Origin: Rhodopila sp.
Lineage (GTDB): Bacteria; Pseudomonadota; Alphaproteobacteria; Acetobacterales; Acetobacteraceae
Direction: 5' to 3'
Length of the DNA stretch: 42,000 bases
Assembly: GCA_025355085.1 (NCBI GenBank)
Contig: JANXLQ010000114.1
Span: forward strand, 1-42,000
A program made the translations under genes and the position numbers. The notes below the pieces were generated by a model. It was not told the DNA's origin. It searched no databases and saw only the letters and a list, made by a program, of their open reading frames with translations. Positions 2,490 through 37,127 of this stretch are shown here, piece after piece. Numbering within the stretch: the first letter of the stretch is position 1; the number at the start of each line of letters is the position of its first letter.

Positions 2490-2718
2490 GTCGATCGTTG
2501 TCATCCACCGGCTCGATACAGCGGCCCGTCTGTGGGGCAGCTTGTCCGCACGAAACCGATGCCCAGCGTTTGACCGGGGCTTCCGCGAGTGGGAGCATCC
2601 ATCGGGAACGTCAGTAACAAGAGCAAATCCGCATGGGTAAGATCGTCTCGCCTTTAACAGTAATCTGGCGAATGGCACCTTCCAAGCGCCATACAGCGTG
2701 TTGGTCGAGGGTATAATC

Positions 2719-5058
2719 ATGCCCCTGTCAAGATTTCGGATAGTGCAGATCGGGTCAGGCATCGCATTGGATTATTGCGGAAAGCTGTTCGCCGATTTCG
2801 GCGCCGATGTCGTGAAACTGGAACCACGCGAAGGCGATGCGTTAAGGTCGTTCCCCCCGGTCCTGGAGAACGGCGAGAGCGGCGTGTTTGCGTGGTTGAA
2901 CACGAACAAACGCAGCGTGACCGAAACAGCGGACGCGATGAATGCGTTGTTGCCGGGGGCCGATTTACTGCTTGATGGCCGCGCCCCGGGTTCATTGCCA
3001 CAGGCGGATGTTTCAACAACGGCGATCTCCTGGTTCGGCGATCACGGTCCCTACGCAGGCTTCGCCGCGACAGAAGCAACAATCCGGGCACTCGGTGGAC
3101 TTGTGGCGTTGACGGGCCGGGCAGACGGGCCGCCGACACTCGCGACCGATTGCCAGTCCGGCATCGTCGCCGGTCTGGCCGCCTTCATCGCGTCCTGCGC
3201 CGGCCTGTTCGACCGCAAATCCGGCAGCCGCCGCTTTTCCCTCAGCATCCACGAAACCGCCGTCAATATCGCGGAATATGAGGCTGCCGTCGCCTGGGAT
3301 TCGGGATTCTCCCGCAAGCGCCCCGGCGTCAACCGTTTCGGACGCAACTACCCCGTCGGCATCTACCAGACCAAAAATGGTCTGATCGGCGTAACCATCG
3401 TCACCCCCGGCCAATGGCGCGGCATCTGCGGAATGCTCGGTATGCCGGAACTCGCCAAAAATTCTCGTTACGCGGTAAGCACGGATCGGCTGGCCCACGC
3501 GCAAGAGATCGATGCGCTGTTTCAGCCGGTCTGGGAAACCCGAACCGCGACCGAATGGTTCGAACTCGCATTGGAATACAAACTGCCGATGGCGGTGGTC
3601 CCGACCATGGCCGAACTGTTGGAACAATCCGTCCACCGCGCACGCGGCGCCTTTGTGCCGGTCCGCATCGGCGACGTGGCGTTCGAGGCACCCGTCCTGC
3701 CGCAACACCTGCTTGCAACCCCACCCCGCACCGGCGGCACCGCCCCTATGGCCGGCGAGGACCATGCCGTGTGGTTCGTTCCTGGATCGGATAACCCTGC
3801 CGAACCGGCGCCCACTGGATCGTTGCCGTTGCAAGGCATACGCATCATCGACCTCACCATGGGTTGGGCCGGCCCCACCGCCGCTCGGCATTTAGGGGAA
3901 CTCGGCGCGGAGGTCATCAAAGTAGAGGCCTGCCAATACCCCGACTGGTGGCGCGGCACCGATTTGCGCGCGGCGTTCATCGCGGCACAAAACTATGAGA
4001 AAATACCCTGGTTCCAGCTTATGAACCGCAACAAGCTGGATGTTACCCTGGACCTGACCCAACCAGACGGCGTCGCCTTGTTAAAACGGCTTGTTGCCGG
4101 TGCCGACGCGGTCATTGAAAATTATTCGTCGGAAGTGCTAACGAAACTCGGCCTCGATTACCGCGTATTGAAAGAGGTGAAGCCAGATCTGGTCATGCTG
4201 TCGATGCCCGCCTTCGGGTCGAATAACGCCTGGAGCGCCTGTCGCGGTTACGGTTCGACGCTGGAACAAGCATCCGGTCTGCCAACGATCACCGGCTTTC
4301 CAGAAGACCCGCCGACGATGAACCAGACCGCATACGGCGACCCCATCGGCGGCTTCAACGCGGCGGCCTCGCTGATGGTCGCCCTGTTGCACAAACAGGC
4401 AACAGGCCAGGGCCAGAACATCGACCTTTCGCAGGTGGAGTGCATGCTACCCCTGGTCGCCCCGGCCCTGATCGAGCAATCCGCCACCGGACAGACACCT
4501 CCCCGCATCGGTAACCGGCATCCGCTGTACGTGCCGCAAGGCTGCTTTCGGTGCGCCGGCGAAGATGCCTGGATCGCGATTTCCGTGACCGGCGATACAA
4601 TGTGGCAGTCGCTGTGCCGGGTGCTGAACAAGCCGTCGCTTACGGACCTGACGGCAACGGAGCGGCGGGAGCAGCAGGGAACCCTGGAAACAGCGATCGG
4701 TGACTGGACGTTGGATCGTGACCCGGATGCTGCCATGGCCACGTTGCAAGCCGCAGGCATCGCCGCCGGGGCCGTTCGCACGCCGCTGGCACTGACCGGC
4801 GACTCGCACCTGCTCGCCCGCGGATTTTGGCGCAGTCTGGACCGTCCGTTCATCGGGCTGCACTGGCAATCCTCCGCGCCGTTTCGGGAAGGCCCTGACC
4901 CATACCCGGTGCGTCGCGCCGCGCCCACCCTCGGTCAGGATAACGACGCCATCCTGGGCGGGCGCCTGGGCCTGGATCGCGAAGAAATCGACCGCCTGAC
5001 CGCCGCCGATGTGATAGGCACGATACCGAAGCCCAGACGAGCACAGAGCGACCAATGA
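2719..5058 (+). CDS. Tandem-duplicated CaiB/BaiF (family III) CoA-transferase
   Basis: Two successive CaiB/BaiF domains ([31 protein letters not shown]... and [32 protein letters not shown]...). ATG at 2719 preferred to the TTG at 2698. Confidence 0.9.
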
Positions 5059-9431: not shown

Positions 9432-11470
9432 TGCCTTGGTCTCTCCGCCGCGACGAAATCTATGCGGCGGGCGACGGCTTCGTCCTGCAACACGGCGTCG
9501 GCCGGCATCGGCAATCTGCGGCGCCAGTTTGGATGTTCGGACACCGTGCCCGGCAGGTTGGGCTGTTCGACCTGACCCAACAAATCCTCAAGCGGGATCA
9601 AAGACAACGGCACTTCCGTTTTTGCAACAAAACGAACGGCGGCATCGACCACGCGATCTGTTTCTTCCGGACCCGGGACAGCTCCCTCTCCAACGTGTTC
9701 CCGCACGAACGCGTTCCACAGGCGGGGGCGGTCCTGTTCACGTTCATGGCGCACGGTGTCCGGATCGACGCCCTCACCCAGACGGCCGAACCGATGGCGA
9801 ACATCGATATCGTTGCCCTTCCACCAACCGGCGACCGTCGGCAGGTCGTGGGTGGAGGTCATCGCCACATCGGTGCTTCCCCAGCCCCGGGACGGAACAA
9901 ACCCGGTATGGGAGTCACGTTCGAACCACAGGACGCGCATGCCATGGATACCGCTTTGTTCAAGCATTTCGTGGAAACCCTCGGGCACCGTTCCAAGGTC
10001 TTCGCCTATCACGACCACGTTGTGACGCACCGATTCCAGGGCGAGCAGCCGCAATAAATCGGCCACCGGATAATTGAGATAAGCGCCATCGGCCGGTGAT
10101 GCACCTTCTGGGATCAGCCATAGCCGCGCCAAACCCATTGCGTGATCGACGCGGATGCCGCCCACGTTGCACATTGCCGCGCGCAGGGTCGCGAGGAACG
10201 GTGCAAATCCGTTTTCCTCCAGCGCGCGGGGGGAAAATCCGGTCAGTCCCCAATCCTGCCCGTTCGGGTTCAGCAGGTCTGGCGGCGCGCCGATGGTCAA
10301 ACCAAGCAAGATGTCGCTCTGCCTGCTCCAGGCATGGCTGCCGTTCGGGTCCATGCCCACGGCAAGGTCACCAATCAAGCCGATGCGCATGCCCGCCTGC
10401 CGCGCTACGTTCTGTGCCGCCGCCACGGACCTGTTGGAAATCCATTGCAGGAATTGGTGAAACAAAACCTCGTCGGGTTGCGAGGCGGCAAAGAACGCAA
10501 CGGCGGAGCCTCTTGGATCGCGCAGATCCCCGGGCCATGACCGCCAGTCCCGTTGCGGCATGCGCGTGGCTTGTAATGCCTCAAAACACGCATGTTCCAG
10601 CAGCAATGCGCCGCCATCCGCCCGGAACCGCGCAAAATCCGCGCCCAGCGGTCCGTCCCAGTCTGGTCCGTCCAGGAATGAATCGAACAGTTTTCGCAAC
10701 AGGGCGTATTTGGCCGGGGATGCTGCCGGCCAGTCGATCAGACCGTTCGATGGCGGCGCTTCGTCACCGGCGCCCTGTCCGAACACCAACTTCGGCGCCG
10801 CATGCAGTGGGTTAAGAAACAACCGGCTGGAAGGCGCGTAGGGGCCGAACCGGGTGGGGTCGGCCGCGTACAGGGCATGCATCGGGCTCAGCGCAATGGC
10901 GTCGGCGCCTTTTGAACCGGCCGCCCTCGCCAAATCCGCCGCGCCGGCCAAATCGCCGATGCCGACATCTCCGGGATGACTCAACCCATAGAGTTGCGCC
11001 GACAATCCCCATAGTCGAGCATCCGGAACGACATCCTCTATCGACCGGCATCGTGCAGGCGACACGGCCAAGACGATTTCACGGTCTTCAACCCTCAGCC
11101 GGTGGTAGCCAATTTCTGCAATCGCCGGTATACGCAACCGCCCCCTTGCCGGCAACAGCACGATTTGCCGGGTTTCGCCGCGTTCCAGCAGCAGTTCCGC
11201 CGGTTGCGACTGATTGCCCCCCACATCCAGGCGTGTCGGACGTCCCGCAACCGCGGTTACCAGCGGCGGCAGGTCCGCCAGGCTACTGCGCCTGGCCAGC
11301 AACCGGCGACTGAAGGACACTTCGCGGCTGGTATCGGCGGGCAGCCCAAGCGCGGCCAGGACACGCTTCAACACCTCTACCGTAACGACCCGAGGGCGTC
11401 CCGCGTAATCCTGCCATTCCACGGCAATTCCAGCCCGCCGGGCCAGATCTTTCAGGACTTCGTCGCTCAT
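9428..11470 (-). CDS. malQ: 4-alpha-glucanotransferase (amylomaltase)
   Basis: GGIRVDHAMGLARLWLIPEGASPADGAYLNYP, VVIGEDLGTVPEGF, TSTHDLPTVAGWW motifs. Confidence 0.95.
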   Translation of the reverse strand: MSDEVLKDLARRAGIAVEWQDYAGRPRVVTVEVLKRVLAALGLPADTSREVSFSRRLLARRSSLADLPPLVTAVAGRPTRLDVGGNQSQPAELLLERGETRQIVLLPARGRLRIPAIAEIGYHRLRVEDREIVLAVSPARCRSIEDVVPDARLWGLSAQLYGLSHPGDVGIGDLAGAADLARAAGSKGADAIALSPMHALYAADPTRFGPYAPSSRLFLNPLHAAPKLVFGQGAGDEAPPSNGLIDWPAASPAKYALLRKLFDSFLDGPDWDGPLGADFARFRADGGALLLEHACFEALQATRMPQRDWRSWPGDLRDPRGSAVAFFAASQPDEVLFHQFLQWISNRSVAAAQNVARQAGMRIGLIGDLAVGMDPNGSHAWSRQSDILLGLTIGAPPDLLNPNGQDWGLTGFSPRALEENGFAPFLATLRAAMCNVGGIRVDHAMGLARLWLIPEGASPADGAYLNYPVADLLRLLALESVRHNVVVIGEDLGTVPEGFHEMLEQSGIHGMRVLWFERDSHTGFVPSRGWGSTDVAMTSTHDLPTVAGWWKGNDIDVRHRFGRLGEGVDPDTVRHEREQDRPRLWNAFVREHVGEGAVPGPEETDRVVDAAVRFVAKTEVPLSLIPLEDLLGQVEQPNLPGTVSEHPNWRRRLPMPADAVLQDEAVARRIDFVAAERPRQ

Positions 11471-13179
11471 GCGGCAACCTCCAGATACGCGGCTGTCATC
11501 GGCCCGGTTTGACCAGTCGAATACAGCAAGCGTCCGGCCGGTGGGTCCACCGGCACGGTCTCCGATCCTAAATTTGTTACGATCGTTAGTTTGGCGCCAT
11601 CACCCATTAACCACCTGGCCAGAACAGCTTTCGGCCCGATCGCATCGGCCCCTATAGATCTGGCACCCGGCAACCGAGGCACCACTTCCTTCATGCGAAG
11701 CGCGATCAGGTGCTGATAAAATGCAAACCGTTCCGGCGAGTCCGGTCGCGGAATGGAATCCGTGAACGTTGCGGCAGCATTCGGGTCCGGGATACGTTCG
11801 CGGTGTTCGGGATCGGTGAAGTGGGCAAATCCCGCGAACTCCTGCCGCCGTCCCTCGCGCACCGCATCCGCCAGTTCGTCATGATGATCGGTAAAGAACA
11901 GGAATGGGGTCCGCGATCCGAACTCCTCCCCCATGAACAGCAGAGGTATCTGCGGACACAGTATCTGGAGTGCAATCGCCGCGTCCATCTCCTTCGCCCC
12001 CGCCAACGACGTCAACCTTTCCCCAAATGCCCGGTTGCCTGTCTGATCATGGTTTTGGAGAAACAAAACGTGAGCATAAGGTGGCAACGCGCCGCTGGGT
12101 TCGCCACGCGGTCCCTTCAGGTAGGATGAGTGCTCACCTTGAAAAACCCAACCCTCCGCCAGGACGCGCGCCAGTTTCGCGGCCGGATCGTCGATGTAAT
12201 CGGCATAGTAACCACCATCCTCACCGGTCAATAACACATGCAGCACGTTATGGCCGTCATCATTCCACTGTGCATCGATGGATTTGCGCAACAGCGAAGC
12301 AGCGTTGTGGTGTTCCATGACCAGATGCACATGCCGGTCGCAGGCCGCCCGCACCGCCGCTGCCATTTCCTCCACCCAATCCTGCTCTTGAATGGCATGC
12401 AAGGCGTCGAACCGCAGACCGTCGAAGCGATATTCCGTCAGCCACATCAGAACGTTGCAGGTAAAAAAATCGCGTACTTCTCGCCTACGGAAGTCTATCG
12501 CCGGCCCCCAGGGCGTGTTGACGTCAGCACGGAAGAACTGCGGCGCGTACGCTCCCATATAATTTCCATCGGGACCAAAATGGTTATAGACCACATCGAG
12601 GAATACCATCAGACCCAGGCCGTGGGCGGTATCGATTAAAGCTTTCAGGTCGCTTGGCGATCCATAGGTGCGATCGGGCGCATAGGGCAGAACTCCATCG
12701 TAACCCCAATTGCGTTTGCCGGGAAAATCGGCGATCGGCATTAGTTCGACTGCCGTAACGCCCAGGGCATGAAGCCGAGGCAGATCTTCGCGCAGCGCGG
12801 AAAAGCCCCCGGCAGCACCGACGTGAATTTCGTATATCACAACCTCGGTCCAGGGGCGTCCGCGCCAGCCGGGATGCTTCCACTCGTAAGCACCGGTGCC
12901 GACCACGCTCGCGTCATGAACATCGCCCGCCTGTCCGGCCGATGCCGGGTCTGGCACCATCGATCCGTCGGCCAGCCGGTATTTGTAACGTGTTCCATCC
13001 GGCACGCGGGCCGTCGCCTCGAACCAACCATCGGTGGATCGCTGCATTGGTGCCAGGTCACCGCCCTCAAACGCGACAGACACTGTTTCCTGGGCCGGCG
13101 CCCAGAGCCTGAATCTGACGGAACCGTCAGGCAGCCGGCTGGCGCCAAATCCGCAGGCGGAGTTTAATACATGCACCAT
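11467..13179 (-). CDS. treZ: Malto-oligosyltrehalose trehalohydrolase
   Basis: CGFGASRLPDGSVRFRLWAPAQETVSVAFEGG; GLRFDALHAI; FLQNHDQTGNRAFGERL; LFMGEEFGSRTPFLFFTDHHDELADAVREGRRQEF. Internal ATG at 13179 preceded by AGGAAGGCGGAT chosen over the ORF start at 13302. Confidence 0.95.
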   Translation of the reverse strand: MVHVLNSACGFGASRLPDGSVRFRLWAPAQETVSVAFEGGDLAPMQRSTDGWFEATARVPDGTRYKYRLADGSMVPDPASAGQAGDVHDASVVGTGAYEWKHPGWRGRPWTEVVIYEIHVGAAGGFSALREDLPRLHALGVTAVELMPIADFPGKRNWGYDGVLPYAPDRTYGSPSDLKALIDTAHGLGLMVFLDVVYNHFGPDGNYMGAYAPQFFRADVNTPWGPAIDFRRREVRDFFTCNVLMWLTEYRFDGLRFDALHAIQEQDWVEEMAAAVRAACDRHVHLVMEHHNAASLLRKSIDAQWNDDGHNVLHVLLTGEDGGYYADYIDDPAAKLARVLAEGWVFQGEHSSYLKGPRGEPSGALPPYAHVLFLQNHDQTGNRAFGERLTSLAGAKEMDAAIALQILCPQIPLLFMGEEFGSRTPFLFFTDHHDELADAVREGRRQEFAGFAHFTDPEHRERIPDPNAAATFTDSIPRPDSPERFAFYQHLIALRMKEVVPRLPGARSIGADAIGPKAVLARWLMGDGAKLTIVTNLGSETVPVDPPAGRLLYSTGQTGPMTAAYLEVAA

Positions 13180-13250
13180 ATCCGCCTTCCTCGCCCAAGC
13201 TGCGGAACCCATTGCCGTTGGGTCCCGGTTCGTTTTCGTCAAGCACTGAC

Positions 13251-13260
13251 AACAATTGTT
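13251..13260. promoter_or_regulatory. Perfect 10-bp palindrome AACAATTGTT in the glgB-treZ gap
   Basis: Directly read; lies in the 168-bp gap, the largest spacer within the operon after the first gene. Confidence 0.3.
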
Positions 13261-13347
13261 CGTCCCTTCCGTTCCTTTGGTCGAAACATATTCTCGCAGC
13301 ATCTCCGAAAGCGGTACGAATAAATCCGGACGGCAGAAAATGTATGG

Positions 13348-15542
<2,195 letters not shown>

Positions 15543-15546
<4 letters not shown>

Positions 15547-18500
15547 GCAACAGCCTCAGGTCCAAGCAGAAGCCGTGTCCGGCGTGCCAATCCATGCAGC
15601 GGAACATCGATCCAGGCCGGCCTGTTGGCTGCCTCATAGACCACCTCGTACGCTGCCTTCTCGATCAAGAACAAATCGAGCAACTCCATTTTGACCGTAA
15701 TAAGCGCCTGCTCCCCATCCGATGCAACCGCTTCTCGATAACCCGTCAGAAACGCCTCGGTTGCCCGTTCGACGAAACCCTCCAGGAACAGGCTCACCTG
15801 CTCATCCGCCAGATGGGCGTGGCTGGCCAGGCTGCGCCGCTTGACCATGGCGGCGGCATAATCGAACGACCGGATCATGCCGGCGACATCGCGCAACGGA
15901 TGGTCTTTGCGGCGGCGAAGTTCCACCGGTTTGACCGGTTCGCCCTCAAAATCGATGATGGCGACGTCGCCGCCGCACACCAGCACCTGACCCAGATGCA
16001 TGTCGCCATGGATACGGCTCAGACCGGTTCCGGAGGCACCTTGCGCCAGTGCGGTCAGAGTATCGAACAGGGCCGGCCTGGCACCTTGCATGAACGCGCG
16101 GTCTGGCTCTTCCGTCGCCTCCATGACCTGATACGCCGCCACCAATTGGTTTCGCGCGCGTTCGGCGAAAGACGCTGCCGTTGCGTCGGTTGCGGTTTCC
16201 GGGGCGAAGTCGGGGTTAGAGGTTGGGCGGCCCAAAACCAAATGCATTTCGCCGATGCGCTGACCCAGCAGCGCCGCGAAACGCACATAATCGACGTGGT
16301 TGGCGGCATCGGCGGCCGCTGCCTCGTCGCCGCTGTTGATATCGGACAGGCCGCGCAACAGCAAATCCGTCGTCCAGGTCCAGGCATCGCCCTGGTTGCG
16401 GAGGAACGCCTGCGCTATGGCCAGCGCATGGCGGGTGCCGTCCGGATCGATGCGCACCACCTCTCCCAACAAAGCCGGGGTGTTGGCGAAGCCCTGGTCG
16501 GTCAGATACCTTCCCATCTCGGCTTCCGGGTGTGGACCATCCGTCACCAAGCGGAACATTTTGATGATTGCGATGTCGCCAACGATGACCGACGAATTCG
16601 ATTGTTCCGCCGACACCCAGTTCATTTCAACACCGTCCGGCACGCTGATGTCCGCCATCCGCGCCGTCGGTTCGAACCGGATCGTGCCCCGATCGGTGGC
16701 GACGATGTCGTTCCGCGCCAGACCGGACAACACCACCCGAGGAAACGCGGGCAGCGCGAAGGCGTCGGTCAATAGTCCGACGATGGCACCGCGACGCACG
16801 CGGGCGAGGGCAAGCTGCGATTGCAACGGCGGCGCGGTTGTATCGCCCCAGGCAATACCAAGCGGCAACAGCCAGCGTGAGATACCGGAAGCCGTTTCCG
16901 TTTCGATTTCCATTAGAACCGCGTCGTTGGACGGAACCCGGGTCAACAGCGCGATGCGTACCGACAGCAGAACCTGGTCCTTCATCGCGAACCAGCGCCG
17001 TTTGGCGAGATATTGCGGCAGCACGTCTCGTTCGATCACGGCCCGGGAGGCCAGTATTGCGTCGAACAGGGAATGACGCATGACAATTGTCTGGTATTCA
17101 GGCATGGGTTCCGGCGCGGGTGTATGAAGGGATGGCCAATCGTCGGCCTCTGACAAAAGGAACCAATAGAAACCGTACGGGGGCAGCGTCAGCAAGTAAG
17201 GCAGTTGCCCGATCGGCGGAAATTGTGAATGTCCGTCGAGTTCGATTGGAACCCGCGCCTGGAACTCCGACAAGTCGAGTTCGACTGCCTGCGGTGTGCG
17301 CGACAGGTTGGCGACACACAGGATCGTAACATCCTCAAATGCGCGCAGATAGGCAAGGATCTTACGATTTTTCGGATACAGTTGGCGGTATGACCCGCGC
17401 CCGAAGACTTTGTATTGCCGCCGGATGGCAATGGTGCGCCGCATCCACATCAATAACGAATGTTGGTCGGATGCCTGGGATTCGACGTTGACGGTTTGAT
17501 AGGCGTAAAGCGGGTCCATCACCATCGGCAGCACCAACCGGGACGGATCGGCAACGCGCGAAAACCCGCCGTTACGGTCGGGCGACCACTGCATAGGCGT
17601 CCGCACCCCGTTTCGATCGCCGAGGTGGATGTTGTCCCCCATGCCAATTTCATCGCCGTAATAGATAACCGGCGTGCCCGGCATAGACAGCAGCAGGTAA
17701 TTCATCAATTCAACGCGCCGGCGGTCATGTTCCAACAGCGGGGCGAGGCGGCGGCGGATGCCGAGGTTAATCCGGGCGCGCCGGTCCGCGGCGTAGGTTT
17801 CCCAAAGGAAGTCGCGTTCGGACTCGGTAACCATCTCCAGCGTTAGCTCGTCATGATTCCGCAAGAAGATGGCCCACTGGCAGTTCGCGGGAATATCGGG
17901 TGTTTGCCGCAGTATATCGGTGATCGGAAACCGATCCTCCCGGGCGATGGCCATGTACATCCGCGGCATCAGCGGAAAGTGGAATGCCATATGGCATTCG
18001 TCGCCATCGCCAAAGTAATCCTTGGTATCCTCGGGCCACTGATTGGCCTCCGCCAGCAACATCTTGTCCGGATACAGTGCAGTCATTTCCGCCCGGATTC
18101 GTTTTAGAACCGCATGAGTTTCCGGCAGGTTTTCGTTGTTGGTACCTTCGCGTTCGACCAGATACGGCACGGCGTCCAGGCGTAGCCCGTCGATCCCCAG
18201 TTCCGCCCAGTAACGCAGCACCGACAGGATTTCACGCATCACACGCGGGTTGTCATAATTCAGGTCGGGCTGGTGATGGTAGAACCGGTGCCAGTAATAG
18301 GCCTTGGCAGTTTCGTCCCAGGTCCAGTTGGATCGTTCCGAATCGACGAAGATGATGCGGGTCCCGGCGTATTTACGGTCGTCCGTGGACCAGACGTAGA
18401 AATCCCGATACATTGACCCGGGCTTGGACATGCGGGCCCGCTGGAACCATGGATGCTGGTCGGACGTATGGTTGACCACCAACTCAGCGATCACCCGGAT

Positions 18501-18821
18501 GCCTTTATCATGCGCGGCCGCGATGAAACGCTTCACATCGGCCAACGTCCCGTAATCCGGATGCACCCCGCGATAGTCGGCGATATCGTACCCATCGTCC
18601 AGTCTGGGGGAAGGATAAAACGGCAAGAGCCAAATCGTGTTCACCCCAAGTTCCGCGATGTAGTCAAGGCGCGCGATCAGGCCGGGGAAATCGCCTATTC
18701 CATCGTTATTGCCATCGAAAAAAGATTTTATATGAAGCTGGTAAATAATGGCATCCTTATACCATAACGGATCAGCATCGGTATCGGCCAGTATCTGAGG
18801 ACGCGGATGCAGCACGTTCAT
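15543..18821 (-). CDS. treS: Trehalose synthase fused to maltokinase (TreS-Mak/Pep2)
   Basis: [59 protein letters not shown]-terminal kinase-like [57 protein letters not shown] at 18821 follows glgE TGA by 1 nt. Confidence 0.95.
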
Positions 18822-18822
18822 G

Positions 18823-21800
18823 TCAAGGCGCCTCAAGCCGCCATATATTGAACGGTAGATCGGCCGGGTCCAGACGGATACGTTGATATTTGCCGAACCA
18901 CATGAATTTTCCCCCGCGCATCAGGTTTGTCACCGAAATCGGTGCGTCGTCCGGCAATCCAAACGCCCACAGAGGCACCTCGATATCCGCTTCCTGTACG
19001 ACATGGGGATCGAGGCTGACGGCCACCAGGACCATACTGCCGTCTATTGAATCACATTTTCCGTACAGAATGACCTGATCGTTGTACGCCGGATAGAACG
19101 TCAGGCCGAGATGCGATTGCAAAGCCGGATGTTGCCGCCTGATCCGGTTCAACGCAGCGATTTCCGCAACAATGTTATTAGGCTGGACGTAGTTCCTCGG
19201 CCTGATCTCATACTTCTCAGAATCCAGGTATTCCTCCCGTCCCGGCAGCGCCGCCGCCTCGCAGACCTCAAACCCCGAATAAATCCCCCATAAACCCGAC
19301 AACGTCGCAGCCAGCGATGCTCGGATCAAAAAACCGGGCCGGCCAGAAGTCTGAAGGAAAACCGGATTGATATCAGGCGTATTGACGAAAAAATTCGGCC
19401 GGAAAAAATCCGCCGCCGGCAGGGTGGTAAGTTCGGTGAGGTACTCGGTGATCTCCTGTTTGGTAATGCGCCAGGTAAAATAAGTGTAGGACTGCGAAAA
19501 TCCGATCTTGGCGAGCCGGTACATCAGCTTGGGACGGGTAAATGCCTCCGAGAGAAACAACACATCCGGATGCCGGCCTTGAATGCCGGCAATCATCCAT
19601 TCCCAGAAAGGTAACGGTTTTGTGTGCGGATTATCCACGCGGAATATTTTTACCCCCTGATCGACCCAGAACTGGACCGTATCCCGCAACGCTATCCATA
19701 CGGCGGGGAAGGAGGCGTCTCCGTAGAAATCCGGATTGACGATGTCTTCATACTTCTTGGGGGGATTCTCGGCGTATCGCAAGGAGCCATCGGGTCGCCA
19801 GCGAAACCAATCGCGGTGCTGGACCACCCAGGGATGATCCGGGGCACACTGGATGGCGAAATCGAGTGCCAGTTCCAGTCCGTGGCGGCCGGCGGCATGC
19901 AGCAATACCCGGAAATCATCCAGGGTTCCCAAAGCGGGATGAATAGCATCGTGGCCACCTTCGGCACCGCCGATGGCATACGGGCTGCCAACGTCAGACA
20001 GTTCCGACTTCAGATTATTGTTGCGGCCCTTGCGATTGACTTTCCCAATGGGATGGATCGGCGGAAAATACAGGACGTCGAAGCCCATGCTTCGAATCCG
20101 CGGCAATTGGCCGATAACTGACCGGAGTGTGCCGTGGACGCCCGCATCATGTGTGGCTGACCTGGGAAATAATTCGTACCAACTGGCAAACTCGGCTGCC
20201 GGCCGATCGACCCGGACGGTGTGGACTGCGCTCCTGGCGGCGAACGGCCGTGTATCGGCACGCTGCATTTCGGCGGCCAGGTCCGCCGACAGCAGCCCCT
20301 CATGGGTCGCCTGACCAGATCGTCCCAAAGTCACCTGAACCAACTGCCGGCCTTCCAGGAGTTCCAGTGTCACATCCTGGCCCGCTGCGGCCTTGGCATG
20401 CAGATCGTAGGTGAATGTGCCCCATCGATCCCACCAGCCTTCGACCGCGTATTGAAACAAACCGATGCGGTCAGGGCGTAGCGAGGCCGCCCACCGGTCG
20501 TTCGTCAGTTTTCGCATAGGCACGCGTTGCCAGCCGGCTTCGTCCAACGGTCTCCACAGCAAATCGGCGGCCAGCACGTCATGACCGTCACTAAAGATAT
20601 CGGCACTGACATTGAAATCCCGGCCCACAACGGTTTTGGCGGGAAAATCGCCACCCGGAAGCACTGCTTCGACAGCGATGCGAGCTGACTCCGCCCACTC
20701 ACGGATCAGTTCCCGGCCACGGCTCGTGACATCCGGTTTGCGGTGGCATTGCAAAATACGAACCTCTCCGGGTCGTAACGGTCCGTCGCCCCCGTCTTCG
20801 GCGGACAATGCCGCACCGGCCGCCGCCGGCAACGGCGCCAGGGGAAAGTCGATCGTGGCCGAATGAACAATGTCGGGGTTGATCAGCACCAAGACGTCCG
20901 ACCGCATCAGGGCCGAGACCGCTGCCGCCGGCCCGGTGATCGGGCGCAGCGTTTCAACCGGCGGCAAATCCGTCGTCAGACGAATGGCGGCCGCGATATC
21001 CTGCGACAGGTCGGCTGCCCCAGCCTGCTGCGCTGCGGTAAAATCGGCTGGACCCGCCCGCGACGCATCGAAGCGGCGATTGGTGGCGAACTCAAACCCC
21101 ATTGGCAGGAACAAGCCGGAACCGGTCGCAGCGGCAATGCCAAGGGCTAAACGATACGCTTGCGCTACATCTGTATCGGGGGGCAGGTGCTGGGCCAATC
21201 GGTCGAGGAACGAGGCTTCCGGTGCGGCCAAGGCTGGAGCCACATCGCGCAGTGACTGTTCGTCGCGGAACCACGACGCCCGGTCGTCCCATTTTCCCGC
21301 AGCCGCACAAGTCAAATCGAATCCGGCGCCGACGAAATCCTCCAGATCGGCCACTCCCGGGGTCCAGGCCAGAAACAGCGCCTCCGGGAACGCGGCCGTC
21401 AGGCGGCGCCAAAACGATGCCGGGACACGATCGAGAGTCAGACAGCGAAACCCGCCGATACCAGCCGCAGTCAGCCGTTCGATAAGGACTATCCACCATT
21501 CCGTTACCGCATCCGCCACCGCGGTCTCACCGAACCGCGGCACTGCGACATCGGTCCTGTGCTGCGGCCGTCTCGGGTCGGCCATCCAACCGCCGCCGGG
21601 CGAACCGAACCAGTCGGGGTGCCGCTGGTGCAAAGGCGAGCCGATCGCCACCTGACCGGGGGCGACATCCAACATCAGCGTCAGTCCGGCGCGATCGGCC
21701 ATGTCCGCTGCCCGAGCAATGCCTTGATCGGCGGAACCGGTAAATCTAAGCGCCGGGTGCAGGCGGTCGAACGTTGCATGAACAAATATATCGCCCTGCT

Positions 21801-22011
21801 GGCCCGGCTCGAACGGCGGGGCGAGGCACACATGGCTGAAACCCATCGTGGCAATGCGGGCAAAAGCGGTTGCCCACTCGTCAAGCGGACCGGCAGCCAA
21901 TGGATGCAAATGATAAATGTTCGCAACAGCGCCACGGTCATGCCGAGGCGTTTCAGGAGCGAGCGTGCCGGACCTGAGGAGATTCATCACGCCAGAACTA
22001 ACGCCCGACAT
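18823..22011 (-). CDS. glgE: Alpha-1,4-glucan:maltose-1-phosphate maltosyltransferase with extra N-terminal GH13-like domain
   Basis: RVDRPAAEFASWYELFPRSATHDAGVHGTLRSVIGQLPRIRSMGFDVLYFPPIHPIGKVNRKGRNN; QGVKIFRVDNPHTKPLPFWEWMI; VLFLSEAFTRPKLMYRLAKIGFSQSYTYFTWR. About 427 extra N-terminal residues. Confidence 0.95.
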   Translation of the reverse strand: MSGVSSGVMNLLRSGTLAPETPRHDRGAVANIYHLHPLAAGPLDEWATAFARIATMGFSHVCLAPPFEPGQQGDIFVHATFDRLHPALRFTGSADQGIARAADMADRAGLTLMLDVAPGQVAIGSPLHQRHPDWFGSPGGGWMADPRRPQHRTDVAVPRFGETAVADAVTEWWIVLIERLTAAGIGGFRCLTLDRVPASFWRRLTAAFPEALFLAWTPGVADLEDFVGAGFDLTCAAAGKWDDRASWFRDEQSLRDVAPALAAPEASFLDRLAQHLPPDTDVAQAYRLALGIAAATGSGLFLPMGFEFATNRRFDASRAGPADFTAAQQAGAADLSQDIAAAIRLTTDLPPVETLRPITGPAAAVSALMRSDVLVLINPDIVHSATIDFPLAPLPAAAGAALSAEDGGDGPLRPGEVRILQCHRKPDVTSRGRELIREWAESARIAVEAVLPGGDFPAKTVVGRDFNVSADIFSDGHDVLAADLLWRPLDEAGWQRVPMRKLTNDRWAASLRPDRIGLFQYAVEGWWDRWGTFTYDLHAKAAAGQDVTLELLEGRQLVQVTLGRSGQATHEGLLSADLAAEMQRADTRPFAARSAVHTVRVDRPAAEFASWYELFPRSATHDAGVHGTLRSVIGQLPRIRSMGFDVLYFPPIHPIGKVNRKGRNNNLKSELSDVGSPYAIGGAEGGHDAIHPALGTLDDFRVLLHAAGRHGLELALDFAIQCAPDHPWVVQHRDWFRWRPDGSLRYAENPPKKYEDIVNPDFYGDASFPAVWIALRDTVQFWVDQGVKIFRVDNPHTKPLPFWEWMIAGIQGRHPDVLFLSEAFTRPKLMYRLAKIGFSQSYTYFTWRITKQEITEYLTELTTLPAADFFRPNFFVNTPDINPVFLQTSGRPGFLIRASLAATLSGLWGIYSGFEVCEAAALPGREEYLDSEKYEIRPRNYVQPNNIVAEIAALNRIRRQHPALQSHLGLTFYPAYNDQVILYGKCDSIDGSMVLVAVSLDPHVVQEADIEVPLWAFGLPDDAPISVTNLMRGGKFMWFGKYQRIRLDPADLPFNIWRLEAP

Positions 22012-30599: not shown

Positions 30600-32015
30600 C
30601 TACCGAACCGCCGAGCGATAGAGTTCGGTGCTGAAATCCGGTGGTACATCGCCGTTCATGCGATTGCGCAGTATGGTCAGGTCATCGTGGAACAGATCGG
30701 CGCTGATTCGGCTGACAATCACCGGAATATCTCGCTTCATACTCGGGACATCGCCGATTGGCAGTCCGAAGCTCAGGAACCCCGCCGGATTCTGCACATG
30801 GATGTGCTTTAGCAAGGGCGATGCGCCGGGCGTTTTTTCCAGGAATTCGTGCCCTGCACCCAGATAAGGGTAAAAACCGAGCATTTCGTCGCGTTCGGCT
30901 TGGGGTGGCAGGAAACGATCGCGCCAAAGCAGGATATGGTTGGCAAAATCGATCAATTCTGGCCGCGATGCCAGGCCGGGGGAATAGCCGGTGCCGGCGA
31001 TCACGAAATCAAAACGATAGGATTCACCATTTATCGTTGTCTCGGTTGCGTCGTTGCGTTCTGTCGCATTCGCCCAGAGCGCCGCGAGGTGCAAATGAAA
31101 ATTGGGAAATTTCACAGTGCGCTCGATCGCGTCGGTCGTTGGCGTCGAACCGAAGCGGAAATACCGCATCGCCTGATGCCACCGGTCGGCGTCGGGAAGC
31201 TGGTAGTAGTTGTCATAAGCACCGGGAAAGCCGCGGGATCGGGTTATCGGCGTCGCGGCGATGGTGTCGCGCCGGGCGAACAGATGAACGGCGGCGGCGC
31301 CATGCTCCAACGCGACTCCAGCGGCGTCGAAGGCCGCGGCGGCACCCCCGATCACAGCGACAGTCCGGCCGCGCAGCGCGGTGAAGTCGATCGCGTCTTC
31401 TGTGTGGGCGTACAATGCGGGTGAAAGGTTAGCCGTCAGTACATCTGGAACGAACTTGCCGCCGCCGCCAAAGAAACCCGTGGCCAGGACGATCTTTCTG
31501 GTCGTTTCGGTCGTGACCCCATTTGGGCCATCAAGGTGCAACCGAAAATGATCCGTAAGCGGTTCAATCCGCGTCAGGCGGGTCGCATAGCGCGGATTGA
31601 TACCAAGGAAATGCTTATACCAACGGATGTAATCAGCCCAATCGGTCCGTTTGATACGGTCGATCCCGGCGTAAGCCTGCTGCCCGTGGCGCGCTTCGTA
31701 CCATGCCTGGAAACTGAGCGCCGGAATGCCGAGTTCCGGGCCCGGCAGTGCTTTCGGCGTCCGCAACAGGTTCATGCGCGCGGCATTCAACCAGATGCCG
31801 GCCCGTTGCTCGTTCGGTGCCGCTTCCAGCACAGTGACCTTGCCGATCCCGGAGCGCCGCAATGCAAACGCCAGCGCGCATCCGGTTTGTCCGCCGCCGG
31901 CGATCGTGACGTTGTGATCGATGCCCGGACGATCAGGCACCCAGTTGGCTGGATCGGGACCCAGCAGGCGAAGTGCTGTCCGGGCATCCGTGTCCGGATC
32001 GTGCGGCTGGGTCAT
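30600..32015 (-). CDS. FAD/NAD(P)-binding flavoprotein (monooxygenase-like)
   Basis: NVTIAGGGQTGCALAFALRRSGIGKVTVLEAAP; KIVLATGFFGGGG; GRTVAVIGGAAAAFDAAGVALEHGAAAVHLFARR; FVIAGTGYSPG. Confidence 0.85.
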   Translation of the reverse strand: MTQPHDPDTDARTALRLLGPDPANWVPDRPGIDHNVTIAGGGQTGCALAFALRRSGIGKVTVLEAAPNEQRAGIWLNAARMNLLRTPKALPGPELGIPALSFQAWYEARHGQQAYAGIDRIKRTDWADYIRWYKHFLGINPRYATRLTRIEPLTDHFRLHLDGPNGVTTETTRKIVLATGFFGGGGKFVPDVLTANLSPALYAHTEDAIDFTALRGRTVAVIGGAAAAFDAAGVALEHGAAAVHLFARRDTIAATPITRSRGFPGAYDNYYQLPDADRWHQAMRYFRFGSTPTTDAIERTVKFPNFHLHLAALWANATERNDATETTINGESYRFDFVIAGTGYSPGLASRPELIDFANHILLWRDRFLPPQAERDEMLGFYPYLGAGHEFLEKTPGASPLLKHIHVQNPAGFLSFGLPIGDVPSMKRDIPVIVSRISADLFHDDLTILRNRMNGDVPPDFSTELYRSAVR

Positions 32016-32116
32016 GTGTTCTTTCCTCTACAGTTCGGTCGTTCCGTTGTCTGCCAACAACATCGGTCGCCAGCCGGCGGCCTCGCCGGCACCAGCATTC
32101 GGCGCTAACCGGCGCG

Positions 32117-32395
32117 CTAATCGAACATCGGCACCGTGCGTGCCATCTCGCCCACCCGCATGCTGGTAATGTCGGCACCCACCGCCTCGACCACGCCGGC
32201 GCCTTCGTGACCCAGTACGAAGGGCAGGTCCATGGGATAGCGGCTCAGTCCGTCCACGACGTGCAAATCGCTGTGACACACGCCGGTGGCAGCGGTACGG
32301 ACCAGCACTTCCCGGCCTCGGGGTTTGTCGATGTCCACGGTTTCGATCGTCAGTGCTTCGTGGACCCGGCGAAAGATGGCGGCGCTGCTTTGCAT
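32117..32395 (-). pseudogene. Truncated zinc-type alcohol dehydrogenase (GroES-like N-terminus only)
   Basis: AAIFRRVHEALTIETVDIDKPRGREVLVRTAATGVCHSDLHVVDGLSRYPMDLPFVLGHEGAGVVEAVGADITSMRVG, then a 10-residue unrelated tail and stop; no NAD-binding domain follows. Confidence 0.8.
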
Positions 32396-32548
32396 GATGC
32401 TCGCTCCCTTATTGGTTGCGGCAAGTATAGCGCTCGCGCCGGGGTAGGGAAGATGCCGGCCAGGATACGAACGCTTCGGCCGGGAACGCCCGCCATCGCC
32501 AGTCCGTCTGCCATGCGCTATTCTGCTGGAAAGCAACGGGAGAATTCC

Positions 32549-32908
32549 ATGCCGGCCACCAATCGTGTCGCATTGATCACCGGTTGCGGCAAACCTGTTG
32601 GTATCGGCAACTCCACCGCCCTCGTGCTGGCAGCTTCGGGCATCGCCGTGGTTGTCGCCGACCTCGCACCGTTCGGCATCACCGTCAACGCGGTGCTTCC
32701 CGGTCCGATCCGGACGACGCGGGCGATCAGCACCAATCGGCGCGAATACGGCGATGACCTGGAGGCCGGTTTCAGGGAGCGTGCGAAGGACATTCCCGTC
32801 GGTCGCTTCGGCTCCCCGGAGGAGGTCGCGGCGACCATCGCGTTCCTGGTTTCGGACGGGGCGAGCTTCGTCACCGGCCAGGCAATCGGTGTCGATGGCG
32901 GCTGGTAA
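32549..32908 (+). pseudogene. Internally deleted SDR (Rossmann start joined in frame to C-terminal part)
   Basis: RVALITGCGKPVGIGNSTALVLAASGIAVVVADLA joins directly to PFGITVNAVLPGPIRTTRAI...SPEEVAATIAFLVSDGASFVTGQAIGVDGGW; the NNAG and S/YxxxK regions are missing. Confidence 0.82.
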
Positions 32909-33114
32909 GCCGATGGTGCAAGCGCCGTCGCTGGCGCCGAATCCGCCGTCATGCTCTACGCGATGCGGCTGATCGCCAATGGGCCGTTTAACCGCGGCCA
33001 TAATGGTGACCAGCGCCGTTTGATCGGCTACGTATTGACCCCCACCACCTGACCGATGCCAATCGCGCATCGCCGGGTTATTCCGCAGAACCCACACCAC
33101 GGGAAAACGATCCT

Positions 33115-34332
33115 ATGCCTGGCATCCTGAGCGACCTTCGCATCGTGGAAGTGTCCGCCTTTATCGCGGCCCCATTGGGCGGCATGACCCTCGCGCAGCT
33201 CGGTGCCGACGTCATTCGTATCGATCCCATCGGTGGCAACATCGACGCAAAGCGTTGGCCCTTGGCGCCCGATGGCACCAGCCTGTACTGGGCCAGCCTG
33301 AACAAATCCAAGCGTTCGGTCTGCCTCGCGCTAAATACGCCGGAAGGGCAGGAGATCGCCCAGTCGCTGATCCGCGCACCGGGACCGAATGCGGGCATTC
33401 TGCTGACCAACCTGCCGGCGGGTAAATGGATGGGATACGATGTGCTGAAGCAGGGCCGCGAAGACCTGATCGTCCTGCGCCTGATGGGCAACTCCGACGG
33501 CGGCGCCGCCATCGACTACACCGTCAACTGCGCCAGTGGTTTTCCCTTCGCCACCGGCCGGGGCGGGGAACCCGTCAACCACGTCCTGCCCGCCTGGGAC
33601 ATCGCCACGGGCCTGTATCTCTCGACCGGTTTGCTGGCGGCGGAACGCGCCCGCCATCGCACCGGGCATGGCCAGGAGGTGACGCTGGCGCTGTCCGACG
33701 TGATGCTAGCCTCGGTCGCCAACCTTGGCTATGTCGCTGACGTTCAGGTTAACAACGCTGTGCGCCCGCCGCTGGGCAACGACCTGTACGGCGCGTTTGG
33801 CCGGGATTTTGCCACATCGGACGGACGCCGGATCATGCTGACCGCGATCTCCAACCGCCAATGGCGGGCGATCGGCAAGGCTACCGGCCTAACGGACAAG
33901 CTGGCGATGATCGGGCCGATGCTGGACCTCGACCTGGACACCGAAGGCGGGCGTTTCGAGGCAACAGACGCCATTTGCGCCGTGCTAAAGCCGTGGTTCG
34001 CCCGGCGCACGCTGGCCGAAATTCACGCGGCCCTGGATGGCAGCGGCGTGCTGTGGGGGCCGTATCAGGATTTTGGCCAATTGGTGCATGAAGACCCGCG
34101 CTGCTCGCTGGCAAACCCCATGTTCGGCGAAATAGACCAACCCGGAGCCGGCCGGATTTTGGCCAACGCCGTGCCATTGGCATTCAGCACCGACATCCGC
34201 CCGCCGGCGGCTCGGGCGCCGCGCCTGGGCGAGCATACCGAAGCCGTTCTGACCGGCCTGTTGGGCCTGTCGTCCGCCCAATACGGCAAGCTGCACGATG
34301 CCGGCGTCGTCGCCGGCCCCACAAATCGATAG
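33115..34332 (+). CDS. mct: CaiB/BaiF CoA-transferase, probable 2-methylfumaryl-CoA isomerase (mesaconyl-CoA C1-C4 CoA transferase)-like
   Basis: LRIVEVSAFIAAPLGGMTLAQLGADVIRIDPIGGNIDAKRWPLAPDGTSLYWASLNKSKRS; GGAAIDYTVNCASGFPFATG; VNHVLPAWDIATGLYLSTGLLAAERARHRTGHGQEV; GNDLYGAFGRDFATSDGRRIM; resembles Mct over its length as remembered. Confidence 0.75.
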   Translation: MPGILSDLRIVEVSAFIAAPLGGMTLAQLGADVIRIDPIGGNIDAKRWPLAPDGTSLYWASLNKSKRSVCLALNTPEGQEIAQSLIRAPGPNAGILLTNLPAGKWMGYDVLKQGREDLIVLRLMGNSDGGAAIDYTVNCASGFPFATGRGGEPVNHVLPAWDIATGLYLSTGLLAAERARHRTGHGQEVTLALSDVMLASVANLGYVADVQVNNAVRPPLGNDLYGAFGRDFATSDGRRIMLTAISNRQWRAIGKATGLTDKLAMIGPMLDLDLDTEGGRFEATDAICAVLKPWFARRTLAEIHAALDGSGVLWGPYQDFGQLVHEDPRCSLANPMFGEIDQPGAGRILANAVPLAFSTDIRPPAARAPRLGEHTEAVLTGLLGLSSAQYGKLHDAGVVAGPTNR

Positions 34333-34344
34333 GACATAGCGAAC

Positions 34345-36000
34345 GTGTCGAACGCACAAGAAGCACTGTTGGGTCTCTGCGGCAGCGCAATGACGCTGGC
34401 GGAACAGTTGGTTGAGGCATCGCGTCGCGCCGTCTCCCTGCTGGTGACCGAGAACGGCAAGCCGAACGCAGCATTGATCGACGTGCATCAACTGGCGGCG
34501 CACGGTTTCGCCTGGCAGGCCACCTATATCGAGGCGCTGCGTCAGGCGCTGCGCTGGGCCAACGGCCTGCAGGCGGCTGGTAATTTTACGGATATCGAAG
34601 CGGCGATCCTGCGCTTGGGTTTTGCCGAGTATCTCTCGCAACTGGCGGGCGGTATCCCGATCAGCCAGACGGAGATGGTCCGCCCATCCGATATCGGTAT
34701 TCCCCCCGAGGTGGCGCTCGGTCTTCTGACCAGCCCAATAATGGCGCGCCTGTCCGATCCCGCCGCATTGAATGCCGCCCGTCAGTGTCTGGCGAGCGCC
34801 TCGATAGACGGCCGCTTCGGCGACGTCGGCATCGAAGATGAAACGATCGCGGCCATTCGCGAACAGTTCCTGCGCTACGCGGCAACCGAGATCGCACCGC
34901 ACGCCCAGGGCTGGCATCAGCGCGACGAACTCATCCCCATGCCGGTTGTTCAGCAACTGGCCGAGATGGGTGTCTTCGGTCTGACGGTGCGCGAAGAGGA
35001 CGGCGGCAGCGGCCTGGGCAAGATCGCCATGTGCGTCGTGTCCGAAGCACTCAGCGGCGGCTACATCGGGGTCGGTTCACTGGGCACCCGAGCGGAAATC
35101 GCTGCCGAACTGATAGGCATTGCCGGGACAGCGGAGCAAAAGACACGCTGGCTCCCGAAGATCGCCTCCGGTGCGATTCTGCCCACGGCGGTGTTTACCG
35201 AACCGAACACCGGTTCCGATCTCGGCAGCCTGCGCACCCGCGCGGTGCGGGATGGCGACTACTACTATGTCACCGGGGCAAAAACCTGGATCACCCACGG
35301 ATCGCGCTCCGACCTGATGACATTGCTGGTCCGCACTGACGCCTCGGCGCCGGGCTATCGTGGACTTTCGATGCTGCTGGCGGAAAAGCCGCGTGGCACT
35401 GACGAAAATCCATTCCCGGCCGAAGGTATGAGTGGCAGCGAAATCCAGGTCCTGGGTTACCGAGGGATGAAGGAATACGAGATCGCCTTTGAAAACTTCA
35501 AAGTTCCGGCCGCCAACCTGCTCGGTGGCGTAGAAGGCCAAGGCTTCAAGCAGTTGATGGAGACGTTCGAAAGCGCCCGCATTCAAACCGGCGCCCGCGC
35601 CCTGGGTGTGGCGCAGAATGCACTGGAACTCGGCGCGGCCTATGCCAGGGACCGTAATCAATTCGGCAAGGCGATCATCGGCTTCCCGCGTGTTGCCAAC
35701 AAAATCGCCTGGATGATGACCGAAACCATGTTCGCCCGCCAACTGACCTATTTCGCCGCCCGCCAGAAAGACAGCGGCCAACGCTGCGATATCGAAGCCG
35801 GCATGGCGAAACTGTTGGCCGCTCGGGTGGCGTTCTCCAACGCCGACAGTGCGTTGCAAGTCCATGGCGGCAACGGCTACGCGGTGGAATACCCGATCAG
35901 CCGCGTGCTGTGCGATGCGCGTATTCTCTCGATTTTTGAGGGCGCGGCCGAGATACAGGCGCAGGTGATCGCGCGTGGATTGATGGGACGCCAGAACTAG
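34345..36000 (+). CDS. mcd: Acyl-CoA dehydrogenase, probable (2S)-methylsuccinyl-CoA dehydrogenase
   Basis: 551 aa with the ~150-aa N-terminal extension characteristic of Mcd (LIDVHQLAAHGFAWQATYIEALRQALRWA...LGFAEYLSQLAGGIPISQTEMVRPSDIGI), then VFTEPNTGSDLGSLRTRAV, ESARIQTGARALGVAQNALELG, QVHGGNGYAVEYPISRVLCDARILSIFEGAAEIQAQVIARGLMG. GTG start. Confidence 0.83.
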   Translation: MSNAQEALLGLCGSAMTLAEQLVEASRRAVSLLVTENGKPNAALIDVHQLAAHGFAWQATYIEALRQALRWANGLQAAGNFTDIEAAILRLGFAEYLSQLAGGIPISQTEMVRPSDIGIPPEVALGLLTSPIMARLSDPAALNAARQCLASASIDGRFGDVGIEDETIAAIREQFLRYAATEIAPHAQGWHQRDELIPMPVVQQLAEMGVFGLTVREEDGGSGLGKIAMCVVSEALSGGYIGVGSLGTRAEIAAELIGIAGTAEQKTRWLPKIASGAILPTAVFTEPNTGSDLGSLRTRAVRDGDYYYVTGAKTWITHGSRSDLMTLLVRTDASAPGYRGLSMLLAEKPRGTDENPFPAEGMSGSEIQVLGYRGMKEYEIAFENFKVPAANLLGGVEGQGFKQLMETFESARIQTGARALGVAQNALELGAAYARDRNQFGKAIIGFPRVANKIAWMMTETMFARQLTYFAARQKDSGQRCDIEAGMAKLLAARVAFSNADSALQVHGGNGYAVEYPISRVLCDARILSIFEGAAEIQAQVIARGLMGRQN

Positions 36001-36061
36001 CGGCCCGATCCCAACGCTTACGTCCCGGGCGTTGGTCGAATCGTCTGCCAAATCAATGGTT

Positions 36062-36221: not shown

Positions 36222-37127
36222 ATGGACAAACCTCGCATCGGCTACGTTGGCCTCGGCGTGATGGGTGGCGCGCTTGCCCGGCGTCTGCTGCGTGAGCACA
36301 AACTGACCGTCTTCGACCTATCGCCGGAACGGTGCGCCGACTTCGCTGCATTGGGCGCGACAGTGGTCGGTTCGCCGGCCGAGGTGGGCGCGGCGTCCGA
36401 TATCGTCATGACCTGCCTGCCGACATCGACGCAGGTGAGGGAGGTGATTTTCGGTGATAATGATGGGTTGATCCGGGGCCTGCGACCGGGCGGCCTGATT
36501 GTCGATCAAACCTCTGGCGCAACCGCGGCCACACGGGCGATGGCAGCGGAACTGGAAGGGACCGGTATCGAATTGATCGACGCCCCGGTCAGCGGCGGGG
36601 CGCCGGGCGCGGACGCCGGCACGATCGCGATCATGGTTGGCGGCACACCGGAACAATACGCTCGTGTAGCGCCGGTGCTGACAGTCATCAGCCCGAACAT
36701 CGCGCATGTGGGGCCGCTGGGTGCGGGTCACACGCTGAAGGCAGTGAACAACATGATGTCCGCCGCCAATCGGCTGCTGGCGTTCGAAGCCGTCAGCATC
36801 GCAGCCGCCAACGGGCTCGATCCCGCCATCGTGGTGGACATGATCAACAAGTCCTCCGGCCGCAACAGTGCAACCCTGGCGGTGTTTCCGAACAATATAT
36901 TCTCCGGCAATTTCGAAGCCCGGTTCAGCATGGCGCTGATGGAAAAGGACGTGGCGCTGGCGGCGGAACTGGCGGGAAACGGGTTCGAACATTTGACGCT
37001 GACGCCGCTGATCCTGCGCAATTACCGCATGGGCATCGAACGGTTCGGCCGCAATGGCGATATTCACGAGATGGTGCGGTTTTATGAAGAGGCCGCCGGA
37101 GTGAAGATCGCGAAAAAGACCGCTTAA
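36222..37127 (+). CDS. NAD(P)-dependent oxidoreductase, 3-hydroxyisobutyrate dehydrogenase / 2-hydroxy-3-oxopropionate reductase family
   Basis: IGYVGLGVMGGALARRLLREHKLTVFDLSPE; DAPVSGGAPGADAGTIAIMVGG; GPLGAGHTLKAVNNMM. Confidence 0.93.
   Translation: MDKPRIGYVGLGVMGGALARRLLREHKLTVFDLSPERCADFAALGATVVGSPAEVGAASDIVMTCLPTSTQVREVIFGDNDGLIRGLRPGGLIVDQTSGATAATRAMAAELEGTGIELIDAPVSGGAPGADAGTIAIMVGGTPEQYARVAPVLTVISPNIAHVGPLGAGHTLKAVNNMMSAANRLLAFEAVSIAAANGLDPAIVVDMINKSSGRNSATLAVFPNNIFSGNFEARFSMALMEKDVALAAELAGNGFEHLTLTPLILRNYRMGIERFGRNGDIHEMVRFYEEAAGVKIAKKTA

Follow-up and report, generated by a model that had tools for sequence, protein, structure and literature searches.

Methylsuccinyl-coenzyme A (CoA) dehydrogenase (Mcd) is known from the ethylmalonyl-CoA pathway of Paracoccus and Rhodobacter, and 2-methylfumaryl-CoA isomerase (Mct, TIGR04253) from the 3-hydroxypropionate (3HP) bi-cycle; neither pathway works without a cobalamin-dependent mutase from the MM_CoA_mutase family, Ecm and/or Mcm. 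The itaconate/methylsuccinate cluster of Pseudomonas and Cupriavidus comprises Ict, Ich, Ccl, C4-Mcd, and Msi (PMC12290011), and it needs no Mct because its dehydrogenase uses the C4 ester. An intramolecular CoA transferase encoded alongside acyl-CoA dehydrogenases is also described for ThnP with ThnO/ThnT (PMC11659651), a system comparable by description rather than by sequence, which is anaerobic and has a different substrate. The locus analysed here belongs to Rhodopila sp. (assembly GCA_025355085.1, contig JANXLQ010000114.1, positions 1 to 42,000 of the forward strand; this whole stretch of 42,000 nucleotides is hereafter called the window) and, in contrast to the Pseudomonas/Cupriavidus cluster, combines a predicted C1-type Mcd with Mct in two adjacent genes:

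33115..34332, plus strand: mct-like gene (open reading frame 1, ORF1), ATG start, 405 aa, assigned by TIGR04253 (5.7e-147), by 55-57% identity to 7xkg/8apq, and by the tree.
34345..36000, plus strand: mcd-like gene (ORF2), a (2S)-methylsuccinyl-C1-CoA dehydrogenase homologue with a ~170-aa N-terminal extension, GTG start, 551 aa, assigned by the 6es9 match, the residues, and the tree.

The occurrence of this pair in a bacterium that has neither of the textbook pathways points to an undescribed breakdown of branched five-carbon acids. The two genes probably constitute a stand-alone, transferable catabolic module that would lead from methylsuccinyl-C1-CoA to mesaconyl-C1-CoA and mesaconyl-C4-CoA and would be served by several upstream routes. 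In particular, the Mcd-like enzyme would oxidise (2S)-methylsuccinyl-C1-CoA, supplied from outside the ethylmalonyl-CoA pathway, to mesaconyl-C1-CoA, on which the Mct-like enzyme would perform an intramolecular CoA shift from C1 to C4 via the Asp162 anhydride/aspartyl-CoA; hydration of mesaconyl-C4-CoA would then give (S)-citramalyl-CoA, which would be cleaved to acetyl-CoA and pyruvate, a route replacing the hydration of the C1 ester and its cleavage to glyoxylate and propionyl-CoA. We infer both reactions and the direction of flux. The proposal, made in a preliminary description of the locus, that the product of the second gene is the substrate of the first is supported, as are the enzyme identities given there. 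Both kinds of enzymes are known, and their combination was not found described in the open literature searched.

The two genes lie on the same strand with a spacing of 12 bp, as had been described. ORF1 carries the motifs IDYTVN, HVLPAWDIATG, and GNDLYGAFGRDF, on the basis of which it had been considered Mct-like rather than a generic CaiB protein; this assignment is borne out by a full-length match to TIGR04253 in the profile search and by matches to the Mct crystal structures 7xkg (1.8e-146) and 8apq (1.5e-141). The source genome contains 44 matches to the CaiB family PF02515, the next best of which reaches 117 bits on the Mct model vs 490 for ORF1. ORF2 matches Paracoccus Mcd (6es9) over its whole length, including the extension of about 170 residues (9.2e-203, 60% identity), in agreement with the extension and core previously recognised in it. 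Both family matches are far above chance level.

The residues on which the predicted activities depend are encoded at the following positions:

33241..33243, plus strand: Mct Ile43 codon, a Leu/Ile position constricting the tunnel of intramolecular CoA transferases (PMC9813914).
33253..33255, plus strand: Mct Arg47 codon, binder of the mesaconyl carboxylate.
33517..33519, plus strand: Mct Tyr135 codon (Tyr136), the second mesaconyl-carboxylate ligand (PMC9813914).
33598..33600, plus strand: Mct catalytic Asp162 codon (Asp165 of Roseiflexus/Chloroflexus Mct; PMC9196870, PMC9813914).
35089..35091, plus strand: Mcd Arg249 codon (Arg252), the first of three carboxylate-binding arginines (PMC5798300).
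35461..35463, plus strand: Mcd Arg373 codon (Arg376).
35596..35598, plus strand: Mcd Arg418 codon (Arg421).
35938..35940, plus strand: Mcd catalytic base Glu532 codon (Glu535 of PdMCD; PMC5798300).

The specificity of Mcd is ascribed to R252, R376, and R421 with their partners E380, S248, and T418, to F287, to the C2-methyl-pocket alanine, and to the base E535 (PMC5798300). ORF2 retains every one of them in addition to the N-terminal extension and is, by its residues, a C1-type dehydrogenase; S248, R252, A285, F287, R376, E380, T418, R421, and E535 are identical in 49/49 Mct-linked homologues, and the pocket is equally conserved in 9/9 sequences from the Ccr-linked group and its neighbours. 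As to the Pseudomonas-type methylsuccinate route, whose dehydrogenase uses the C4 ester and which also includes an MmgE/PrpD isomerase, no Ict, Ich, or Ccl gene is linked within the window. As regards Mct, all 38 homologues of the paired clade have the same or an equivalent residue at D165, R47, Y136, N100, and I/L43, position 43 being Ile in 38/38. Leu or Ile at this position is held to be a mark of intramolecular CoA transferases, and Arg47 and Tyr136 are taken as further marks of the same mode of transfer (PMC9813914).

The source genome, a draft of 471 contigs with an estimated completeness of 100%, was searched family by family. It has no match to PF01642 (MM_CoA_mutase; Ecm, methylmalonyl-CoA mutase), and Ccr was not found (best score 81 bits, cut-off 378.55); because the mutase and Ccr are absent, neither the ethylmalonyl-CoA pathway nor the 3HP bi-cycle is able to run in it. 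Among the pathway genes named in the preliminary description, ccr and ecm are thus missing, while a meh-like gene is present but unspecific. The same description had seen in the pair a junction at which Mcd, working in the ethylmalonyl-CoA pathway, delivers its product to Mct for diversion into the second half of the bi-cycle. Both reactions do belong to these two pathways, a few pair-bearing genomes (Bosea) also contain Ccr, and a 3HP-type Mct occurs in the same genus; however, for the source genome the junction is largely refuted by the missing mutase and Ccr and by an Mcd lying outside the Ccr-linked clade. In Bosea, a second Mcd, 2-7 kb away from Ccr, is a paralogue distinct from the Mct-linked copy, and the paired and 3HP Mct proteins fall into different clades, so a junction is very improbable. 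The salvage of C5 acids, the second idea of that description, is nearer the mark.

The distribution of the pair was surveyed at ~80 Mct loci from named genomes and annotated plasmids, with counts by tblastn that include the window. Of the 42 loci whose Mct is >=65% identical to that of the window, 38 have a same-strand Mcd in the vicinity, in comparison to 2/39 loci below 65%; one of the four loci without Mcd is truncated by a contig end, and in one Azospirillum group mct and mcd are separated by 2 kb that contain LysR and SDR (short-chain dehydrogenase/reductase) genes. Within the genus Mct is patchy, being present in 14 of 33 genomes, 11 of which have the paired type as judged by identity. 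PF01642 has no match in nine of the ten other congeners with paired-type Mct, the exception being a genome 86% complete with 7% contamination in which the match lies on a different contig, vs matches in 3/3 congeners with a 3HP-type Mct (55% identical). The three 3HP-type copies examined (L092, L192, and L193) lie close to mch and mcl homologues, unlike the window mct, which is paired with mcd. Ccr is absent from 25 of 30 Mct-bearing genomes.

The comparison of the last 17 kb of the window with 12 relatives by blastn delimits the conserved segment:

33083..36001, plus strand: largest extent of the two-gene block common to congeners, whose flanks are not shared.

Outside the pair, alignments are confined to 70 bp belonging to a different CaiB gene and to two short segments around 25.1 kb; since the alignment covers the two genes and not their flanks, the pair resides in differing neighbourhoods among congeners.

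In the trees the two proteins group within the Mct and Mcd families, respectively, in agreement with the preliminary assignment. In the Mct tree (quick search, SH-aLRT supports, two long branches as outgroups), the clade that holds the window protein has 50 rows and a support of 100; 37 of the rows are adjacent to Mcd, and the rest include Brevibacterium/Arthrobacter copies adjoining a Meh-like gene. Chloroflexus, Roseiflexus, and mch/mcl-linked Mct form another clade beside this one. In the Mcd tree, the window protein belongs to a clade of 28 (support 100), all 28 adjacent to Mct, with Paracoccus and Ccr-linked Mcd elsewhere. On these topologies the pairing has been gained or lost more than once, with at least 10 changes for Mct. 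A second, divergent set of pairs is found on plasmids of Sphingobium, Sphingomonas, Ancylobacter, and Sinorhizobium, some within larger beta-oxidation clusters; 4/5 of them carry Pro at Mct position 43, and intramolecular transfer is therefore less sure there.

In other bacteria, where the gene calls around part of the loci are mechanical ORFs picked by conservation, the neighbouring genes would supply the steps beyond mesaconyl-C4-CoA and hint at several feeders. In Sphingobium herbicidovorans pSHV1, mct, mcd, a MaoC gene, and a citrate-lyase-family gene (266 bits for RipC/Ccl, cut-off 375) form a single run; in Sinorhizobium mexicanum, homologues of mcd, mct, meh, ccl, and electron transfer flavoprotein (ETF) genes lie inside a few kilobases; and in Azospirillum canadense, RipC (390.6 bits, above the cut-off of 375), meh, CaiB, and acyl-CoA dehydrogenase genes accompany mct and mcd. 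The Brevibacterium cluster comprises CaiB, class I fumarase, acyl-CoA dehydrogenases, meh, and mct, and that of Paraburkholderia sp. D15 comprises meh, CoA-ester lyase, ETF, acyl-CoA dehydrogenase, mct, and CoA transferase, with an intradiol dioxygenase and a maleylacetate reductase close by. The clustering of the pair with Meh-like and citramalyl-CoA-lyase genes agrees with the direction towards citramalyl-CoA that had been proposed. The pair of Sphingomonas sp. ERG5 is carried by the (4-chloro-2-methylphenoxy)acetic acid (MCPA) plasmid pCADAB1, and no mention of it was found in the searched passages of the paper on that plasmid.

In relatives, methylsuccinyl-C1-CoA would likely be fed in by a 2-oxoglutarate dehydrogenase (OGDH)-like E1 that uses a methyl-2-oxoglutarate, by a CoA transferase with methylsuccinate as its substrate, or by the thiolysis of a methyl-3-oxoadipyl-CoA. 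For the last of these, the 4-methylcatechol/4-methylmuconolactone (mml) pathway is a possible upstream route, in which thiolysis of 4-methyl-3-oxoadipyl-CoA yields methylsuccinyl-CoA and acetyl-CoA (PMC6449761).

Some plasmids carry related arrangements. On Novosphingobium plasmids (L217 and L127) an Mcd-like gene is directly followed by a MaoC gene, with no Mct beside it. On the conjugative IncP plasmid pAKD34 (L126) an acyl-CoA dehydrogenase gene overlaps an Mct-like gene (53% identical) by a few bases, and this pair is flanked by transposase genes.

The OGDH-like E1, of about 850-900 aa, occurs in the cluster at 18 of the 42 loci with Mct >=65%; examples carrying Met259 and Pro296 (E. coli numbering) are:

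L018:7345-9975: E1 gene of a close congener, 25 bp upstream of mct.
L040:3482-6166: E1 gene; 16 further loci have one.

In L026, L029, and L051 the E1 gene overlaps mct by 4 bp. The clustered E1 shares 40-45% identity with the canonical E1 of the source genome and keeps His260 and His298 of the E. coli enzyme, which are ligands of the substrate carboxylate. Close to these histidines, Met replaces Ala/Pro259 and Pro replaces Lys296 in 19/19 sequences (Pseudorhizobium included) vs three canonical ones. Clusters of Bosea and Azospirillum add genes for a TRAP transporter, an FAD-linked 2-hydroxyacid oxidase-like protein, an aldehyde dehydrogenase, and 3-hydroxyisobutyrate-dehydrogenase (HIBADH) or ketopantoate-reductase-like proteins. 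By its chemistry, the oxidative decarboxylation of 3-methyl-2-oxoglutarate would yield exactly methylsuccinyl-C1-CoA, the Mcd substrate, in keeping with the gene context. Tentatively, the E1-mct-mcd clusters may represent an undescribed pathway in which E1 makes methylsuccinyl-C1-CoA from this oxoacid, and Mcd, Mct, a C4-hydratase, and a citramalyl-CoA lyase convert it to acetyl-CoA and pyruvate. The window has the same two-gene core without E1. On a Pseudorhizobium flavum plasmid (L218), an OGDH-like E1 gene is divergent from an Mcd gene, an MmgE/PrpD family gene adjoins them, and Mct lies ~17 kb off on the same plasmid.

Several points weigh against a catabolic module as proposed. The enzymes of the paired clade are assigned from sequence, and ORF1, with 489.9 bits, remains under the curated cut-off of TIGR04253 (725 bits), so it is filed as a sister subfamily and not as an equivalog. 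The 'cork' that holds the CoA adenine in Chloroflexus Mct is replaced in the window protein by L100, N74, and G103 (for F101, R75, and R104): F101 is Leu in 38/38 paired Mct, and R75 (to N/D) and R104 (to S/G) are lost in nearly all. R75 and R104 also vary among 3HP-type copies; the changed CoA-adenosine clamp is a real difference of paired Mct from Chloroflexus Mct. As for the later steps in the source genome, a Meh-like protein on contig 91, 48% identical to that of Bosea, is encoded in 24/24 Mct genomes and, in a control with 78 relatives, in most Mct-negative congeners too; it is not specific and was not counted as evidence for the missing hydratase. No clear citramalyl-CoA lyase was found among the seven HpcH/HpaI loci of the genome, the best candidate being a CitE-like gene on contig 52 beside an Smt-like CaiB gene, the sole CitE-like lyase close to a CaiB that seems suitable, which reaches only 166 of 375 bits for RipC. 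No dedicated E1 was found in the source genome, hence no feeder was identified there; its one E1 match (45%) sits with E2 and E3 genes and was set aside.

The altered cork bears on two other explanations. The loss of the three residues through which CoA closes off the active site in Chloroflexus would suit an Mct-like protein that mainly activates free methylsuccinate or mesaconate by intermolecular transfer from a CoA ester, with Mcd supplying or using the ester, and no other dedicated activating enzyme is linked to the pair within the window. Such a role is quite unlikely, as Ile43, Arg47, and Tyr136, the marks of intramolecular transfer (PMC9813914), are invariant in the paired clade and as distinct CoA transferases are encoded together with the pair or with Mct in Azospirillum, Brevibacterium, and Paraburkholderia. 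The same alteration could reflect another substrate, namely a different branched or alicyclic CoA-activated dicarboxylic acid; ThnP with ThnO/ThnT in anaerobic naphthalene degradation is a precedent for this enzyme pairing (PMC11659651), and the divergent pairs in beta-oxidation clusters are compatible with it. This is rather unlikely in view of the entire methylsuccinyl pocket of Mcd, which is invariant down to the alanine of the C2-methyl cavity, and of the Meh- and citramalyl-CoA-lyase-like genes alongside the pair elsewhere. The conversion of methylsuccinyl-C1-CoA to mesaconyl-C4-CoA is thus retained as the probable function.

The surroundings of the pair in the window include one gene considered as a pathway member:

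36222-37127, plus strand: HIBADH family gene, 221 bp past mcd.

Bosea has such a gene near the pair; that of the window is only 38% identical and lies outside the block shared by congeners, and it was rejected. Just upstream of mct, at 31973-33100, lie an apparent SDR gene minus its middle (plus strand) and a zinc alcohol dehydrogenase gene reduced to its 5' part (minus strand), both apparently left over from a rearrangement. Farther away, 2698-5058 (plus strand) encodes a 786-aa protein with two tandem CoA-transferase family III domains (a CaiB-CaiB fusion), followed by a major facilitator superfamily transporter gene, and 6882-22011 (minus strand) holds a glycogen/trehalose cluster (GlgE, GlgB, alpha-amylase-like, and 4-alpha-glucanotransferase).

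The comparison thus distinguishes a separate clade of C1-type Mcd that is paired with Mct in genomes unable to run the ethylmalonyl-CoA pathway. If the proposed function is true, Mct would have a catabolic role beyond CO2 fixation, and the presence of the 3HP bi-cycle or of the ethylmalonyl-CoA pathway would be wrongly deduced from mct or mcd alone in such genomes. The pair would also provide a fate for the methylsuccinyl-CoA derived from methylated aromatics; in keeping with this role, it is found on pCADAB1 and, accompanied by homologues of meh and ccl, on a Sphingobium herbicidovorans plasmid.

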